Assembly (NCBI GenBank): GCA_002239025.1
Contig: MPNM01000006.1
Location: forward strand, 1 to 64,000
Length of the DNA stretch: 64,000 nucleotides
Source of the DNA: Chloroflexi bacterium bin125
Lineage (GTDB): Bacteria; Chloroflexota; Dehalococcoidia; Bin125
Reading direction: 5' to 3'
Part shown: piece after piece, positions 9,384 to 17,095 of the stretch
Layout: each line of letters opens with the position of its first letter
Position numbering within the stretch: the first letter of the stretch is position 1
The notes under the pieces: generated by a model
What the model saw: only the letters and a program-made list of their open reading frames with translations
Databases searched by the model: none
Told to the model about the DNA's origin: nothing
Made by a program: the position numbers and the translations under genes

Positions 9384-9923
9384 GTGAAGATGCTGTTGGC
9401 AGTGATGAGCGTGTTGACGATGCTGGCGTTCGCGATTGGGCTCAGCGCCTGCACTGGAACTGATAGCGACGCCATCGACGACGTTCGCACTGATGCGGCG
9501 CTGGCCACCGAGGCTGGCCAGCGAGCGCTGGTGCTAGCTGCGTTGGAGCCGTTGAATCCATTGCGATACCACCACCTCGACCGGATCATCCGCGAGGAAC
9601 ACCAGATTCCGGCGAACGCCGTAATCTGGGCGACCAGGGCTCGAGAGGTGCTCGGCTGGGTCGATTGGCCACACGAACTCCACGGCCACGTCGAGCAATA
9701 CGCGGAATGGCTCGACTCCCTGCTGGCCGCATTCCGCGAGGACGATGCGATGGCGGCGTCGGAACCATCAAAGATTACGCACGCGCTCGCCCATACCTTC
9801 GAGTCGACGCTTGAAGCCTGGCTGAGCAACGAGTCTCTCCCCGATGTTCCGGCATTAGCTGGACTTGAGCCTCCGACGCATGGCGAGAACGGCAATGCTC
9901 AACACGACGCGAACAGCGAGTAA
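9384..9923 (+). CDS. Putative lipoprotein, His-rich, unknown
   Basis: The N-terminus 'MKMLLAVMSVLTMLAFAIGLSAC' (signal with lipobox L-S-A-C) marks a lipoprotein of 179 residues. The mature part is mostly helical and holds His residues in 'RYHHLDRI', 'EEHQI' and 'PHELHGHVEQY', which could bind a metal. That is suggestive beside copper genes but unproven. It overlaps the start of the CopC-like gene, indicating one operon. Confidence 0.65.
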   Translation: MKMLLAVMSVLTMLAFAIGLSACTGTDSDAIDDVRTDAALATEAGQRALVLAALEPLNPLRYHHLDRIIREEHQIPANAVIWATRAREVLGWVDWPHELHGHVEQYAEWLDSLLAAFREDDAMAASEPSKITHALAHTFESTLEAWLSNESLPDVPALAGLEPPTHGENGNAQHDANSE

Positions 9924-10578: not shown

Positions 10579-11585
10579 AACTGCGAATCGTCGTCTTGTC
10601 GTTGTTGTCATTTGCGACGTTGTTCGTTGCTTGTGGCGGCGGCAGCGAACGAGTCGTTGAACAACGAATTCCCGCGCCTGGGACGTTTGTCTATACGCAA
10701 GGCGTCGACCTGTGGATCCAGGACGAAGATGGACCTCGTTTGCTGATTGCAGCGGGCCAGGATCAGCAGCTGTTGCATCCTGCCATCTCACCCGACGGTG
10801 AGCGCGTGGCTTACGTCGTGTTCCAACTGACGCAAGCTGAGGGTTCGACGATTGGCACTGATCTGGCAATTGCCGATCTCAGCAATCCTGAACAACAGAT
10901 TGTGGTCGAACATACGAAACAGGCAGAGTTCATCTGGAGTCCGCGCTGGTCGTCCGACGGCGAATCGCTGATCTTTACTCACGAACCCGGCGAGCTGCTG
11001 ATTCGGATTGCTCGCCTTGATCTGCAACGCGGTGTGGTTGACATCCTGCGCGAGGATGCCCGCGACGCCGATGTCTCGGCGGATGGCTCTCGGATCGTGT
11101 TTGTCAGTGCGCCCTACAGCGGCGATCCTCATCTGGTCGTGCGCGACCTCGCGGATGGCTCGGAGTTGGTGCTCGATCCCCAGCGCGAATGGCAGCCTCG
11201 GCCGTATCGCATTCCTCGATTCGTGCCTGACGCTGACGCCGTGGTGTTCTCGGCCGGGCAGTTTCTGCCGCAGGTTTCGGTGAATGCACTCGGTCTGAAT
11301 GGGCCCGAAGACTTGTGGGTGGTCGATCTGGAGACTCGTGAGCTCCTGCAGATTGCGGCGATTGGCGAAGATCAACCTGACTTTGCGATGTCGGACGATG
11401 GACGTCATGTGCTCGTCATGGGAGCGTTCGGCATCTATCTCGTGACGACCGATGCGACCGATCCTCCGTATGCCATTGCGCCCGGGGAGTTTCATGGCGG
11501 CATCGACTGGGTCGGCGGCGTCGATAACGAGGAGTGGGCGGCGATTCGCGAGTCGGTGTTCCAGATTCAGGATTCCTCGCAATGA
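10575..11585 (+). CDS. TolB-like beta-propeller lipoprotein
   Basis: 'MKLRIVVLSLLSFATLFVAC' is a signal with a lipobox Cys at residue 20. The rest shows repeated blades of the WD40-like PD40/TolB type: 'HPAISPDGERVAYV', 'SPRWSSDGESLIFT', 'DADVSADGSRIVFV', 'DFAMSDDGRHVLVM'. Such propellers serve as extracytoplasmic binding scaffolds. It lies between the two CopC-domain genes with four-base overlaps on both sides, so it is translationally coupled to copper handling. The partner is unknown. Confidence 0.8.
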   Translation: MKLRIVVLSLLSFATLFVACGGGSERVVEQRIPAPGTFVYTQGVDLWIQDEDGPRLLIAAGQDQQLLHPAISPDGERVAYVVFQLTQAEGSTIGTDLAIADLSNPEQQIVVEHTKQAEFIWSPRWSSDGESLIFTHEPGELLIRIARLDLQRGVVDILREDARDADVSADGSRIVFVSAPYSGDPHLVVRDLADGSELVLDPQREWQPRPYRIPRFVPDADAVVFSAGQFLPQVSVNALGLNGPEDLWVVDLETRELLQIAAIGEDQPDFAMSDDGRHVLVMGAFGIYLVTTDATDPPYAIAPGEFHGGIDWVGGVDNEEWAAIRESVFQIQDSSQ

Positions 11586-13792
11586 GACGGCTCGGTCTGC
11601 TGGGTCTACTGGTCGCAGCGTCGATCGGCTTGGCGGTCGGGATCGTCAGTTCGGCTGGCACGGCCGATGCTCACGCCTTGCTTGCTCGCGCGGATCCGCC
11701 GATCAACGCCTCGCTGCGAGAGTCGCCGACGCGGATCACGCTGTTCATGACCGAGCAGCTGCAGCGCAGCCATAGCTCGGTCCAGATTCTCGATAGCGCA
11801 GGTCAACGTCGCGACATTGGCGAGACTGGTTTCTCTGACGCTGTGCCGACGCAGATGAGCGTAGGCGTGCTGCGTCTCGACCCTGGCGTCTACACGGTCG
11901 TCTGGGAGACCTTGTCCGAAGTTGACGGTCATACCTGGACCGGGTCGTATGTGTTCTCGGTGCTGAATCCGGATGGTTCGGCTCCGGCGGGCAGCGGTGT
12001 GGTCGTCGACCTCAATCGTCCCGGACCGCCGGTCGCAGCCGACGCTGTGGTCAAGGCGATCGGACTTGTGGCGCTGGTGTTGTTCGTGGGGGCGATGGTG
12101 ATGTCCTTTGTACTGAAACCGTCTCCGCTCTCGACCTTGTTGCCACTCATGGCGACGATGGTTTTGCTCGGTGTCGCGACAACCGGCTATGAAGCCATCG
12201 CCGGCGCGCTGCGTCTCAGTGAGATTGGCTTCCTGGGCGACGTCCTGTTTGATACTCGGAACGGGCTCTGGCTGCAGCAGCGCTGGTATGTGCTGATCGT
12301 TGCGGCTCTGGCGATCAGTGTGCGGTTCATTCGTCCGACGGCGCTCGGTGACAGTGGATTACGGGCATTGTTGTTTGTGCTGGCTGTCGCCTGGTTGGCC
12401 TCGACCTCGGCGATTTCTCACGGCGCGGCAGTCGGCTCAGGATGGATCTGGGGCACGCTGTTCGATGCGTTGCACCTGGCTGCTGCAGCGGTCTGGATTG
12501 GCAGTCTCGTCAGTCTGATCTTGACGCTGCGGTCCCGACCGGGCGAGCGCGTGGAGTTGGTCCGGCGATTCTCGATACTGGCCGTGTCGACCGTGCCCAT
12601 CCTCGCCGCCGCCGGTCTGATTTCGGCGCTCATCCAGATTCCTCAAGTCAGCGGTCTGTTTGAGACCGATTGGGGACTGGCGTTCCTGATCAAGATCGTT
12701 GTCTTACTTGCGCTGTTCGCTGCCGCAGGCGCAAATGCGTTCCTCTTGAGGCCTCGCGACGCTGCAGAGGCGGGAGGTGATTCCGGCCTTGCCAGGCGGT
12801 TCTCGATGCTGATGCGGGTCGAGGCCGTGTTGGGTCTCGCTGTGATCGCGGCTTCTGCTGCGTTGACTCAGCTTCCTTCGCCCGCCAGCGCTCAGCCGGA
12901 GATTGAACAGAAGGACAACACGATTATCGAGACGGTCGCTCGGGGCGACATTGTCGCCTCGCTTGAGGTCTCGCCAAATCTGGTCGGATTCAACACCTGG
13001 ACGGCGACGATCGAAGATCCTGCGGACAATCCGGTAGAGGATCTACTGCTCCGCTTCCGCTACGAGGATTCGAGCGTAGGCCCAGTGACGGTTAGGACTG
13101 AGCCTCTTGGCGATGGCCGATTCCGGCTCGAAGGCGCCTACTTTGGCCTGCCCGGAGAGTGGACGATCGAGATGGAATTGCGTCGCGCGTCGGGGGATGA
13201 CCTCGTTGTCGCCGTGTTGAGCGATGTGGAGTCCGGGTTCCAGGCGTCGCCGTTTGCCGCCGACCGAGGCGGCGCGCTGGCCTTGCCACTGGCACAGATG
13301 GACTGGAACGGTGTGGGCGCGCTGTGGGCATTCGTGATTGGCGGACTGGCCTGGATCAATCGGCCTCGCCTGCGAGCCGCGTTCGGTCCGAGAGCGGCCG
13401 ACGGCGCATTTGTCTCGGGACTTCTGGGATTGATTGTCGCCGTGGTGCTGCTGACCGGCTTGCACGTCGAGCCGGGACGCACGCTGGCCAATCCGGTCGA
13501 GCGGACGGCTGAGTCGGTTGAACGTGGGGCCGGCCTGTTTGCCGCCAACTGCGTATCCTGCCACGGGGATACCGGAGCTGGCGATGGTCCGTTGGCGGAC
13601 TCGTTGCCTGCGCCGCCGGCCAACTTCACAGTGCATGTGCCATTCCATCCCGACGGCGTGCTGTTCGCCTGGATCACGGACGGGATTCGAGGTACCGGGA
13701 TGCCGGCCTGGTCGCCGCAGTTGTCCGACCAGGAGCGCTGGGATTTGGTCAACTTCTTGCGGGCCAGTTTTGATGTTCCGGGCGCCCAATGA
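11582..13792 (+). CDS. CopC-CopD-cytochrome c fusion, copper/redox membrane protein
   Basis: This 736-residue fusion starts with a signal ending 'GTADA' and mature His31, then a CopC domain with Asp115 and His117 in 'EVDGHTWTG', completing the Cu(II) site. Next are about eight transmembrane segments of the CopD/PCuAC-region type, with 'SAISHGAAVGSGWIWG' and 'DALHLAAAAVWIGSLVSL'. An extracytoplasmic beta-rich region follows, then two more membrane helices, and last a class I cytochrome c domain with CVSCH at 657-661 and axial Met near 707 ('GTGMPAW'). The start is fixed by a four-base overlap with the previous gene. It may link copper import to electron transfer. Confidence 0.9.
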   Translation: MRRLGLLGLLVAASIGLAVGIVSSAGTADAHALLARADPPINASLRESPTRITLFMTEQLQRSHSSVQILDSAGQRRDIGETGFSDAVPTQMSVGVLRLDPGVYTVVWETLSEVDGHTWTGSYVFSVLNPDGSAPAGSGVVVDLNRPGPPVAADAVVKAIGLVALVLFVGAMVMSFVLKPSPLSTLLPLMATMVLLGVATTGYEAIAGALRLSEIGFLGDVLFDTRNGLWLQQRWYVLIVAALAISVRFIRPTALGDSGLRALLFVLAVAWLASTSAISHGAAVGSGWIWGTLFDALHLAAAAVWIGSLVSLILTLRSRPGERVELVRRFSILAVSTVPILAAAGLISALIQIPQVSGLFETDWGLAFLIKIVVLLALFAAAGANAFLLRPRDAAEAGGDSGLARRFSMLMRVEAVLGLAVIAASAALTQLPSPASAQPEIEQKDNTIIETVARGDIVASLEVSPNLVGFNTWTATIEDPADNPVEDLLLRFRYEDSSVGPVTVRTEPLGDGRFRLEGAYFGLPGEWTIEMELRRASGDDLVVAVLSDVESGFQASPFAADRGGALALPLAQMDWNGVGALWAFVIGGLAWINRPRLRAAFGPRAADGAFVSGLLGLIVAVVLLTGLHVEPGRTLANPVERTAESVERGAGLFAANCVSCHGDTGAGDGPLADSLPAPPANFTVHVPFHPDGVLFAWITDGIRGTGMPAWSPQLSDQERWDLVNFLRASFDVPGAQ

Positions 13793-13880: not shown

Positions 13881-14915
13881 ATGGTCACCGCGATAGAAAA
13901 CCCGGGACTCAACCTTGACTGGCTGAACCTGGAAACCGACGACGAGTTCGACATCCAGACGGGGCGCAAGGGCGTCACGCTGCAGTCAATCAACCAGCGC
14001 ATGGCCGGCGCCGATGGCGTTGACCAGGCCGATTGGCGTTCGTTCGCACCGCGCGGCATCGAGGCCGACCCGCGATCCAACGCGCACGCTCGCCAGTACC
14101 GCGACAAGGGCGATGTCTGGTCCGAGTCGGCGATGCTGCTCTACGAAGAGGCGCTACAGCGCCAGTGGTCTTCGGCCCGTGACATTCCCTGGGATACGAT
14201 CGGCGATCAGCCGGACGACATCGAAAAGGCGATGTGCACGCTGTGTACGTTCCTCACCCAGGTCGAGTTTATCGCCGGTGACGTTCCGGGCCGCTTCCTT
14301 GAGTCGGTCCACCCCGACTTCTTTGAGTCGCAGCTTTTCCTCGGTACGCAGCTCATGGACGAAGCGCGTCACCTTGACGTGTTCCGCAAGCGCGTATTGG
14401 TCAACGGCGGCGGGATGTCGCCGGCCGGCCTTGGCGCGGTGGGCCTGCTCGCGATTGATGACTTCACCGAGATGACCGCGATCCTGCACCTCTTCGCCGA
14501 GGGCCTGGTCCAGTCGCTCTTCCGCATGGGCGAGCTGATTGGCCAGAATGAAGCCGAGAAGCGTATGTTCCGCCTGTCGGCGCAGGACGAGTCGCGTCAC
14601 CTGGCCTTCGGTGTCACGCACACCAAGTACACCGTCGAGACGCAGCCCTGGCGCAAGGAAGAACTGCACCACTACCTCGACATCAACGAGACCGTGCAGA
14701 ACACGCAGGCCGGCCTGACGACGAACCCGATCACCGGTGAGGCACTGGCCGTGCTCGCCGGCGGCGGCATCGAGTACCTCGACGAGGGCTACAACCTGGT
14801 CATGCTGATGCGCAAGAAGCAGATCAACGAGTACTACCACCGTCTGCAGGTGGTCGGACTCGGCGACCGGCTCGACCGGATGGCGCCAGACCTGCGCGAG
14901 TTGATCACTGTCTAG
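13881..14915 (+). CDS. R2-like ferritin-fold diiron protein (probable oxidase/oxygenase), complete metal site
   Basis: This 344-residue protein has six candidate metal ligands of the R2/ferritin-like carboxylate-bridged fold: Glu129 ('FLTQVEF'), Glu161 and His164 ('MDEARH'), Glu207 ('HLFAEGLV'), and Glu237 and His240 ('QDESRH'). Annotation pipelines may label such proteins ribonucleotide reductase beta, but no R1 gene or R2 C-terminal tail is present, so an R2-like ligand-binding oxidase or N-oxygenase is more likely. It is followed 63 bases later by a degenerate paralog. Substrate unknown. Confidence 0.8.
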   Translation: MVTAIENPGLNLDWLNLETDDEFDIQTGRKGVTLQSINQRMAGADGVDQADWRSFAPRGIEADPRSNAHARQYRDKGDVWSESAMLLYEEALQRQWSSARDIPWDTIGDQPDDIEKAMCTLCTFLTQVEFIAGDVPGRFLESVHPDFFESQLFLGTQLMDEARHLDVFRKRVLVNGGGMSPAGLGAVGLLAIDDFTEMTAILHLFAEGLVQSLFRMGELIGQNEAEKRMFRLSAQDESRHLAFGVTHTKYTVETQPWRKEELHHYLDINETVQNTQAGLTTNPITGEALAVLAGGGIEYLDEGYNLVMLMRKKQINEYYHRLQVVGLGDRLDRMAPDLRELITV

Positions 14916-14978
14916 CAGTCGCAGCCGACCGGCAGCAAGTATCACGACCACCAGACCCCGGAACGGACGGGAACCATC

Positions 14979-16253
14979 ATGCCGCCTCTCTCACCAGCGC
15001 AGAAGATGCGCGCTCAAGTCCGTGGCTGGCCGGCCGATTTGATCGAGCGGGTTGAGAACTCAAACACTTCGGGCCGCCAGATCGACAACATCCTGAACAT
15101 CTCGATCGAGCCCGACCGAGTCAGCAAGTGGCTCGAGTTCGTTGACGACAATCCGGAGCACCCGTTCGCGGGGGCTCAGCTGATCATGTTCGAGGATGGT
15201 GGCGAGACGGGACTCAAGCCGACCGCGTCCGAAGACGGGATGCGCTTGAGCGATGTCGACATTGGCTCATACGGTCACGTGCCTGATGTCTGGGGTTACC
15301 GCAACGATCTTCCACGGGGGACCAAGCCGGTTCCTGGCATGTACATGCCCGCCGGCTACGCGATTTACGACCGTACAGAAATCTGGGCGGATGGCGTCGC
15401 CGACCTCTACGAAGACGCGATTCGCGACCGCTGGATTCCGGCCACCGATCTCGATTGGGAGAATCGCGAAGAGCTGGCTCCCGAGGTCGAGCGCGCGACT
15501 GGACAGATCTGCGCGGTCTACTCGACCTACGGCATCGCCGAGCAAAAGGTGATCTCGAAGTGGCTGGAGGAGATTTCCTACGGTTTCCACGAGGTCAAGT
15601 TGTTCCTTGCGACGCAGGTCTATGACGCCGGCCGCAAGGTTGAGGCGTTGCGCAAGCGCGCGCTGCATGGCTCGGGGATTATCGGCAAGGCGCCGCTCTC
15701 GGATGTTTCCGAGTCCTGGTACAACGCGCTGACGTTCACCGACATGATCATCGCGTTGGACGTGGTCTACAAGTCCTACGAGTTGACCGCGTTCGAGTGC
15801 GCGACCGACTGGGCGCGCTCCGACTTCGACCGGGACCTCTTCGCCCGTCTGGCGGAAGACAGCAAGCGACACCTTGAGTACGGTCTCAAGCACCTCGAGT
15901 GGTACAACCGCTATGCCGAACGCGCCGAGATGGAGTTGCCAATCTTCTTCATCAAGGCTGAAGGTGGTCTCGCCTCTGAGATGGCGCAGTCGCCGATCGA
16001 GCGCGAAGCGCTGGCGGTGCTCTATGCCGATGGCGTCGAACGTCTCGATGCCGGAGTCGAAGAGCTGCGAAAACTGCGCGAGAAGCAGTACCACGATTAT
16101 CTGCATCGCCTGCACGATCACGGTTTCAACCGGATTGGCGAGGCCGCGGGCATTCTTGGTCTGGCTACGCAGGACCCGTTGCTCAAGGCACTCACTCCCG
16201 AGGCACTGACCGAGGGAGCCACAGCAGGCACCACGGCCACGGACCGCGACTAG
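14979..16253 (+). CDS. Degenerate paralog of the R2-like diiron protein, metal ligands lost
   Basis: This 424-residue protein aligns without gaps to the preceding diiron protein over both ligand regions. At the six ligand positions it has Gly185, Ala217, Lys220, Lys265, Ser295 and His298, so five of six are lost ('YDAGRK' for 'MDEARH', 'EDSKRH' for 'QDESRH'). Helix framework residues remain, including 'LRKRAL' and the C-terminal 'EALAVL.DG'. It has about 55 extra N-terminal residues. It is most simply a non-catalytic partner in a heteromer, like Rnr4 with Rnr2 in yeast ribonucleotide reductase; this is inference. Confidence 0.8.
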   Translation: MPPLSPAQKMRAQVRGWPADLIERVENSNTSGRQIDNILNISIEPDRVSKWLEFVDDNPEHPFAGAQLIMFEDGGETGLKPTASEDGMRLSDVDIGSYGHVPDVWGYRNDLPRGTKPVPGMYMPAGYAIYDRTEIWADGVADLYEDAIRDRWIPATDLDWENREELAPEVERATGQICAVYSTYGIAEQKVISKWLEEISYGFHEVKLFLATQVYDAGRKVEALRKRALHGSGIIGKAPLSDVSESWYNALTFTDMIIALDVVYKSYELTAFECATDWARSDFDRDLFARLAEDSKRHLEYGLKHLEWYNRYAERAEMELPIFFIKAEGGLASEMAQSPIEREALAVLYADGVERLDAGVEELRKLREKQYHDYLHRLHDHGFNRIGEAAGILGLATQDPLLKALTPEALTEGATAGTTATDRD

Positions 16254-16300: not shown

Positions 16301-17095
16301 GTGAGTCCCGCACACATTGATCTGAACTACGAGATCGCTGGCCCGTCGGACGGGATGCCGGTGCTGTTCGTGCACGGCATCCTGACCTGTCGCGCGCACT
16401 GGCTGCTCAACCTTCCCGCCTTTCACGAGGCAGGATTTCGCAGTGTCACCGTCGACCTGTTTGGGCACGGATCCTCGCCTGCGCCCGAGGACGAGGACGC
16501 GTACCACCCAGACCGCTACGTCGACCGTTTCAGTGCGTTGCGGGAGCTCGTCGACGCGGACCGTTGGTTCGTCGTTGGTCAGTCCCTGGGCGCTGCCTTG
16601 ACGCTGAACTACGCGATGTCGCGGCCCGATGAGGTCATCGCTCACGTGGTCACGAACTCGCACTCCGCCTTCGGTGAGCCAAACCGAATTGGCAATCCCG
16701 AGGCGGCGCGAGAGCGAGCTCAAACGATGATCGACGGCGGAATCGACGCGATCATGAGACACCCGCTGAATCCGCGGCGAGCCAGAGCATTTGATGCCGA
16801 ACGTCGATTGCAGTTCGACGATGCGATGTTGCTCAGCACACCGGCCGGTATTGCTCGAACCATGCTGCACACATCGCCATACACCCCGCTGCGCCATCGG
16901 CTCCCATCGAATCCGGTGCAGACTCTGCTGGTCGCCGGCGATCGAGAAGAGGCGTTCACGCCTGCGCGCGAGTGGGTCGAGGCCAATGCTGCGAACTTTC
17001 GTGTTGAGCGAGTATCAGCGACCCACGCCGTCAACATCAGCGCCGCCGACGACTTCAATCGGATATCCATAGATTTCCTTGGTGAGTACATGTAA
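16301..17095 (+). CDS. Alpha/beta hydrolase
   Basis: This 264-residue alpha/beta hydrolase fold protein has 'VLFVHGILTCRAHW' (oxyanion His-Gly), 'VDLFGHGSSPAP', the nucleophile elbow 'VVGQSLGAALTLNYA' with the Ser near residue 91, 'LLVAGDREEAFTP' and a terminal His in 'SATHAVNIS'. The GTG start is the first in frame after an upstream gap of 47 bases. It runs with the diiron genes and may process their substrate or product, which is not known. Confidence 0.85.
   Translation: MSPAHIDLNYEIAGPSDGMPVLFVHGILTCRAHWLLNLPAFHEAGFRSVTVDLFGHGSSPAPEDEDAYHPDRYVDRFSALRELVDADRWFVVGQSLGAALTLNYAMSRPDEVIAHVVTNSHSAFGEPNRIGNPEAARERAQTMIDGGIDAIMRHPLNPRRARAFDAERRLQFDDAMLLSTPAGIARTMLHTSPYTPLRHRLPSNPVQTLLVAGDREEAFTPAREWVEANAANFRVERVSATHAVNISAADDFNRISIDFLGEYM

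Follow-up and report, generated by a model that had tools for sequence, protein, structure and literature searches.

An R2-like protein and its metal-free paralog, followed in several families by an SCP2-fold protein, suggest a heteromeric oxygenase in uncultured Chloroflexota

The window analysed here, a stretch of 64,000 nt from contig MPNM01000006.1 of Chloroflexi bacterium bin125, contains two adjacent genes for R2-like proteins, designated alpha and beta, of which alpha has a complete set of R2-type metal ligands and beta has lost nearly all of them. The locus raises the question of whether the two products form one enzyme with a single metal-binding half, and whether such an enzyme belongs with the copper/cytochrome gene beside it or with any known diiron system. 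The features concerned are as follows.

11534-13792, + strand: CopC-CopD-cytochrome c fusion (identified by Pfam), 88 nt upstream of alpha; judged not to be part of the system
13881-14915, + strand: alpha, putative R2-like metal-binding subunit, 344 aa, with E129, E161, H164, E207, E237 and H240
14916-14978, + strand: alpha-beta spacer, 63 nt from the alpha stop codon (TAG) to the beta start, with both genes in one frame
14979-16253, + strand: beta, metal-free paralog of alpha, 424 aa, with G, A, K, K, S and H at the ligand sites
16301-17095, + strand: alpha/beta-hydrolase that follows beta only at window-type loci; probably not part of the system

Alpha and beta showed 27% identity over 279 columns in BLASTP (E 2e-31). 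The initial annotation had read alpha as carrying all six R2-type ligands and its paralog as having lost five of the six, and both readings were borne out by the BLASTP alignment and by an alignment of 78 sequences, in each of which E129/E161/H164/E207/E237/H240 of alpha face G/A/K/K/S/H of beta. Neither protein of the window generated a hit in Pfam at E 0.1, beta had no match in NCBIfam, and a profile search of PDB sequences with beta returned zero matches. PADLOC gave no match, and a plasmid search gave a single weak match, in Xenorhabdus (E 5e-5). The N-terminus of beta is a helical extension of about 100 aa, which looks like helical repeats in the window (14979-15280) and in relatives; the SinI anti-repressor model matched 4 of 20 betas (best E 7e-7), and a lone alpha at locus L090 apparently has a similar N-terminal extension.

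The genome that contains the window carries three pairs, on contig C19 (the window), on C11 (36125 with 37555) and on C16 (20441 with 21676). A scan of named genomes, which detects close relatives only, found 37 loci, whose titles all name Chloroflexi, Chloroflexota or Dehalococcoidia. Profile searches detected alpha or a relative in 22 of 400 Chloroflexota genomes, in 115 of 393 Dehalococcoidia genomes and, in a second class, that of genome G145, in 3 of 29 genomes, one of which has a distant solo alpha only. Co-occurrence of the two genes, a check proposed with the initial annotation, was seen at several scales. In the first set of relatives together with the genome of the window, beta was the next gene downstream on the same strand for 38 of 39 alphas, with spacers of 37-199 nt across the 38 loci, and the 39th alpha stops 97 nt short of a contig end. 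Across wider families, counted in 60 regions picked around Dehalococcoidia alpha matches, beta lay within 2.6 kb downstream for 35 of 61 alphas and did not for the other 26. When 32 genomes were searched with both profiles, alpha or a relative was detected in 29, and beta, called wherever its profile scored above that of alpha, in 27 of those 29 (in one of them as a fragment); the two alpha genomes lacking beta were G421, whose alpha is roughly 1 kb away from the end of a contig, and G403, which has a distant solo alpha. Three genomes that have gamma, the third gene described below, and lack alpha also lack beta. Alphas exceed betas in some genomes, as in G503 (four alphas versus two betas). 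Two long open frames, of 823 aa in G516 and 1020 aa in G459, were considered as natural alpha-beta fusions and rejected, because these long frames overlap and alpha and beta are encoded in different frames.

The ligand pattern was consistent within each class. All 39 alphas of the first relatives, aligned in the 78-sequence set with its many near-relatives, carried EEHEEH, and the 38 scorable betas (the 39th is a fragment) carried GAKKSH in 35 cases and GVKKSH, GAKKAH and GGLDIH in one each. A wider set of 195 sequences was compiled without rows of fewer than 200 aligned residues and without six very distant frames, and class was assigned by the higher-scoring profile, so that the alpha class takes in distant solo relatives. 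In this set, the six-ligand R2-type site (EEHEEH) was complete in 118/118 alphas and in 0/77 betas. The betas kept one of the six ligands in 52 sequences, two in 16 and none in 9; the E207 and E237 positions were kept in 0/77, and 58/77 had Lys or Arg at at least one of the six ligand positions. The scaffold was retained, as the initial annotation had claimed, since the Asp and Arg of the second ExxH, W96 and W104 were each present in 77/77 betas.

Median dN/dS for alpha and beta was 0.041 and 0.078 in the window type (15 loci), 0.055 and 0.111 in the C11 type, and 0.088 and 0.234 in a third group of six loci, values to be taken with caution at a median dS of 0.5-0.9. Beta was not regarded as a decaying gene because of its median of 0.078 in the window type, and these estimates indicate that it is under purifying selection. 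The reading of beta as a pseudogene was rejected on the dN/dS values, with the same caution on dS. The sole broken beta seen, at L040 (1066-1710 and beyond), is split into several frames, through either sequencing error or decay.

The initial annotation had placed the pair in a copper/cytochrome setting. A pair that belonged to such a locus might, for example, serve copper handling or act as an electron-supplied oxidase. The CopC-CopD-cytochrome gene does lie close upstream on the same strand, and neighbour clustering found it upstream of 12 of the 13 window-type loci examined, but it was not found beside the C11-type and C16-type pairs of the same genome or beside the pairs of other families in the loci read. 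Because its conservation is confined to window-type pairs, the fusion was regarded as a neighbour; the copper setting was not borne out, and we consider it highly improbable that the pair belongs to a copper/cytochrome locus. No reductase or ferredoxin was evident in a Pfam scan of eight neighbours in the window. Upstream of CopC, a 179-aa ORF (9384-9923) with no Pfam match is conserved in 8 clustered window-type loci.

Since alpha and beta share a frame, reading through the alpha stop into beta gives a linked chain of 790 residues, which was modelled in one AlphaFold2 run with 28 rows. The artificially linked chain reached a pLDDT of 84.3 and a pTM of 0.88, a pTM that would presumably be difficult to attain without a confident placement of the halves relative to each other. 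The top fold matches of the model were 6d9f, R2lox and the soluble methane monooxygenase (sMMO) hydroxylase. The beta half aligned with R2lox 6qrz (Z 17.4, rmsd 2.6, 230 residues), with MMOH alpha 1mhy_D (Z 17.3, rmsd 4.3, 303 residues) and with phenol hydroxylase chain 2inp_D (Z 17.0, rmsd 2.9, 242 residues). Evolutionary distances of alpha and beta were correlated among 48 thinned adjacent pairs (r 0.90, a value reached in 0 of 2000 permutations), a correlation that includes shared species history. From the pTM of the linked chain and this correlation, an alpha-beta heteromer is considered likely. R2-like relatives are usually homodimers, and alpha could instead be an ordinary homodimeric R2lox/VlmB-like oxidase that shares an operon or pathway, and no complex, with beta as a separate homodimer, for example a ligand-binding one. 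The 26 alphas not adjacent to a beta and the excess of alpha copies in genomes such as G503 are consistent with two such homodimers, but the predicted linked chain and the correlated distances argue against them, as does the presence of beta in 27 of the 29 alpha genomes searched, also where the genes are unlinked; we regard separate homodimers as unlikely. The heteromer is thus preferred. The initial annotation had proposed a heteromeric R2-like oxidase or oxygenase with a metal-free partner and a structure prediction as a check on its interface; the co-occurrence and the linked-chain prediction support that proposal.

A phylogeny of 84 rows set most betas, in a clade of 46 rows (support 100/100), opposite the principal alpha clade of 27 rows (support 100/97), and the betas of L102 and L192 were placed inside another alpha group. 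Forcing all betas into a single clade cost 31.6 log units (AU p 0.011), and two origins of the metal-free partner are therefore probable, subject to the usual reservation concerning long branches. Contig C12 of the genome of the window also encodes a far more remote R2-like protein (L047:2882-3709, 275 aa), which has EEHEEH, lacks a partner and shows weak matches to R2lox and AcsF cyclase.

Neighbour clustering revealed a third gene, gamma, of about 145 aa, which follows beta in several families. In the loci read, beta and gamma occurred together at 28 loci in 29 pairs, always as beta then gamma on one strand; the order was alpha-beta-gamma at 18 loci, beta-gamma at eight, alpha-alpha-beta-gamma at one and alpha-beta-gamma-alpha-beta-gamma at one, and one further locus had alpha and gamma alone. 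No gamma was found beside window-type pairs in the loci read. The gamma of the same genome is on another contig (G000:C23:42402-42824), outside the window, and for this reason it was missed in the initial annotation. Among the 393 Dehalococcoidia genomes, with the alpha and gamma searches taken as the same draw because their handles agree, 109 contained alpha and gamma, six alpha only, three gamma only and 275 neither (Fisher p 2e-85, phi 0.94, a statistic that ignores shared ancestry). In the second class, gamma was found in 2 of 29 genomes, the same two that carry alpha and beta, and the genome with the third alpha, the distant solo, had no gamma. The gamma model (pLDDT 93.9) matched SCP2 protein 2cx7 in Foldseek (E 3.7e-6) and 2cx7_B with VIA (Z 14.1, rmsd 2.2, 122 residues). 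Sequence-level hints were below threshold, with Pfam PF02036 reached by 2 of 18 members (best E 0.14) and a further SCP2 hint at E 0.39. The predicted structure indicates that gamma has the SCP2 (sterol-carrier) fold.

Two other kinds of gene were seen near these loci. A zinc-ribbon protein lies between beta and gamma in the second-class genomes (L096:4360-4662 and L097:6062-6364; PF09723 E 2e-10 in L096). Related genes that look thiolase-like by eye lie near alpha-beta(-gamma) in three families (L102:9201-10418, L097:7641 and L091:2953) and possibly point to lipid catabolism.

The closest solved relative of alpha by profile was a VlmB homolog, 6d9f, whose entry title names aldehyde deformylating oxidase activity; a profile of 18 alphas matched the VlmB homologs 6d9f/8wvr at E 1.5e-7, and 6d9f was also ranked first by Foldseek at about 18% identity. 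The azoxy synthase VlmB is presented in the available portion of PMC11705231 as an oxygenase acting on aliphatic N-N compounds and is termed heme-like diiron-dependent; that portion mentions neither a metal-free paralog nor an SCP2 partner, both of which accompany alpha here. R2lox has the fold and the six-ligand pattern in common with alpha, and a metal-free partner is present only on the side of alpha. All 18 profile alphas matched the R2lox model NF006200 at E 1e-3 or better, but alpha scored 31.5 bits against a curated cut-off of 194, and the genome of the window had 0 matches above that cut-off. The Tyr of the R2lox Tyr-Val ether cross-link, which we take to sit five residues before the fourth ligand, was found in 0/118 alphas. 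On the score and the missing Tyr, alpha was rejected as an R2lox.

Ferritin-like enzymes that pair an active half with a metal-free one have precedents. In bacterial multicomponent monooxygenase (BMM) hydroxylases such as sMMO and phenol hydroxylase, the active alpha has a metal-free homologue, beta, together with a small third subunit, and in the Rnr2/Rnr4 pair of ribonucleotide reductase (RNR) one partner lacks ligands. At the site of the RNR radical Tyr, presumably four residues after the first His ligand, Phe was found in 118/118 alphas, and alpha was ruled out as a Tyr-radical RNR subunit on this assumed position. Phe at this site also occurs in class Ic R2. A small-subunit pair of the RNR kind would share the fold, would account for the weak PF00268 matches of 5 of 18 alphas (best E 3.4e-4) and would have a precedent in the R2-type Rnr2-Rnr4 heterodimer of yeast, as described in the part of PMC4245953 available. 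We nevertheless hold such a pair to be most unlikely, given not only the Phe, with its class Ic counterpart, but also the several paralogous pairs per genome, the absence of an R1-like gene among the eight neighbours scanned and the co-occurrence of an SCP2-fold protein. Alpha-beta thus differs from Rnr2-Rnr4 in being bacterial, multi-copy, without the radical Tyr and with an SCP2-fold companion.

A divergent BMM, with hydroxylase alpha and metal-free beta here and the reductase and coupling protein undetected elsewhere, would follow the same logic, as a homologous metal-free beta does stand beside alpha and the beta half aligns with 1mhy_D and 2inp_D. However, PF02332 was matched neither by alpha or beta of the window at E 0.1 nor, at 0.01, by any protein in a sample of 18 alphas and 20 betas; by profile, alpha is nearest to VlmB/R2lox, and the third component is predicted to have an SCP2 fold. 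There is very little chance, in our estimation, that the set is a divergent BMM. No BMM reductase or coupling protein was found by Pfam among the eight neighbour proteins scanned. The set lacks the defining BMM, R2lox and Tyr-radical RNR features that were tested, and BMM hydroxylases and yeast Rnr2/Rnr4 offer parallels from outside its family.

For the third component, the nearest analogies come from ubiquinone biosynthesis. According to the accessible parts of the respective papers, COQ9 stabilises the diiron hydroxylase COQ7 (PMC9563070) and is an isoprenoid-lipid-binding protein (PMC10385794), and UbiJ, an SCP2 protein, has been proposed to retain lipid intermediates within the Ubi metabolon (PMC9499169). 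These systems are without a metal-free paralog and belong to a different enzyme branch. By analogy with the SCP2 domain of UbiJ and with COQ9 aiding COQ7, gamma is likely to be the carrier of a hydrophobic substrate.

Taken together, we think it reasonably probable that alpha, beta and gamma make up a three-part R2/VlmB-like oxygenase, for which we infer the complex, the O2 chemistry and the substrate. This would be a heteromeric oxygenase of the R2lox/VlmB branch of the ferritin-like superfamily, in which alpha would carry the dinuclear metal site and activate O2. Beta, an ancient duplicate that has lost the metal site, would replace one half of the R2-type dimer and serve as a scaffold, allosteric or docking subunit, and gamma would bind a hydrophobic, lipid-like substrate (a lipid, polycyclic or long-chain compound) and present it to alpha. 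Several catalytic alphas might use one platform, which would fit the alphas outnumbering betas in G503. More tentatively, and with rather less confidence, the set might represent a new Chloroflexota class of lipid oxygenases with swappable alphas on a platform of metal-free beta and SCP2 carrier, in which the metal-free partner was invented at least twice.

The initial annotation had stated that no system of such composition was described. No description of the alpha-beta pair or the alpha-beta-gamma trio was found in searches of open-licence PMC papers; the BMM and Rnr2/Rnr4 precedents for the principle had been overlooked. The words diiron, ferritin and ribonucleotide are absent from the main text of three Chloroflexota genome papers (PMC6946804, PMC6306507 and PMC10444878). 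The enzyme set is apparently undescribed and carried by many uncultured Chloroflexota.

The combination of alpha, a metal-free look-alike and a protein with a lipid-carrier fold suggests a multi-part enzyme that oxidises greasy molecules. As a test case, the set bears on why metal-free halves have been gained again and again by diiron-type enzymes, apparently twice here, and on the proposed delivery of substrate to an R2-like enzyme by an SCP2-fold protein. The SAR202 clade, to which some Dehalococcoidia belong, is thought to oxidise recalcitrant organic matter, with the focus on flavin enzymes in the available portions of PMC6946804 and PMC6306507. An oxygenase that is multi-copy and occurs in 115 of the 393 Dehalococcoidia genomes would add a new candidate enzyme for the oxidation of such matter.
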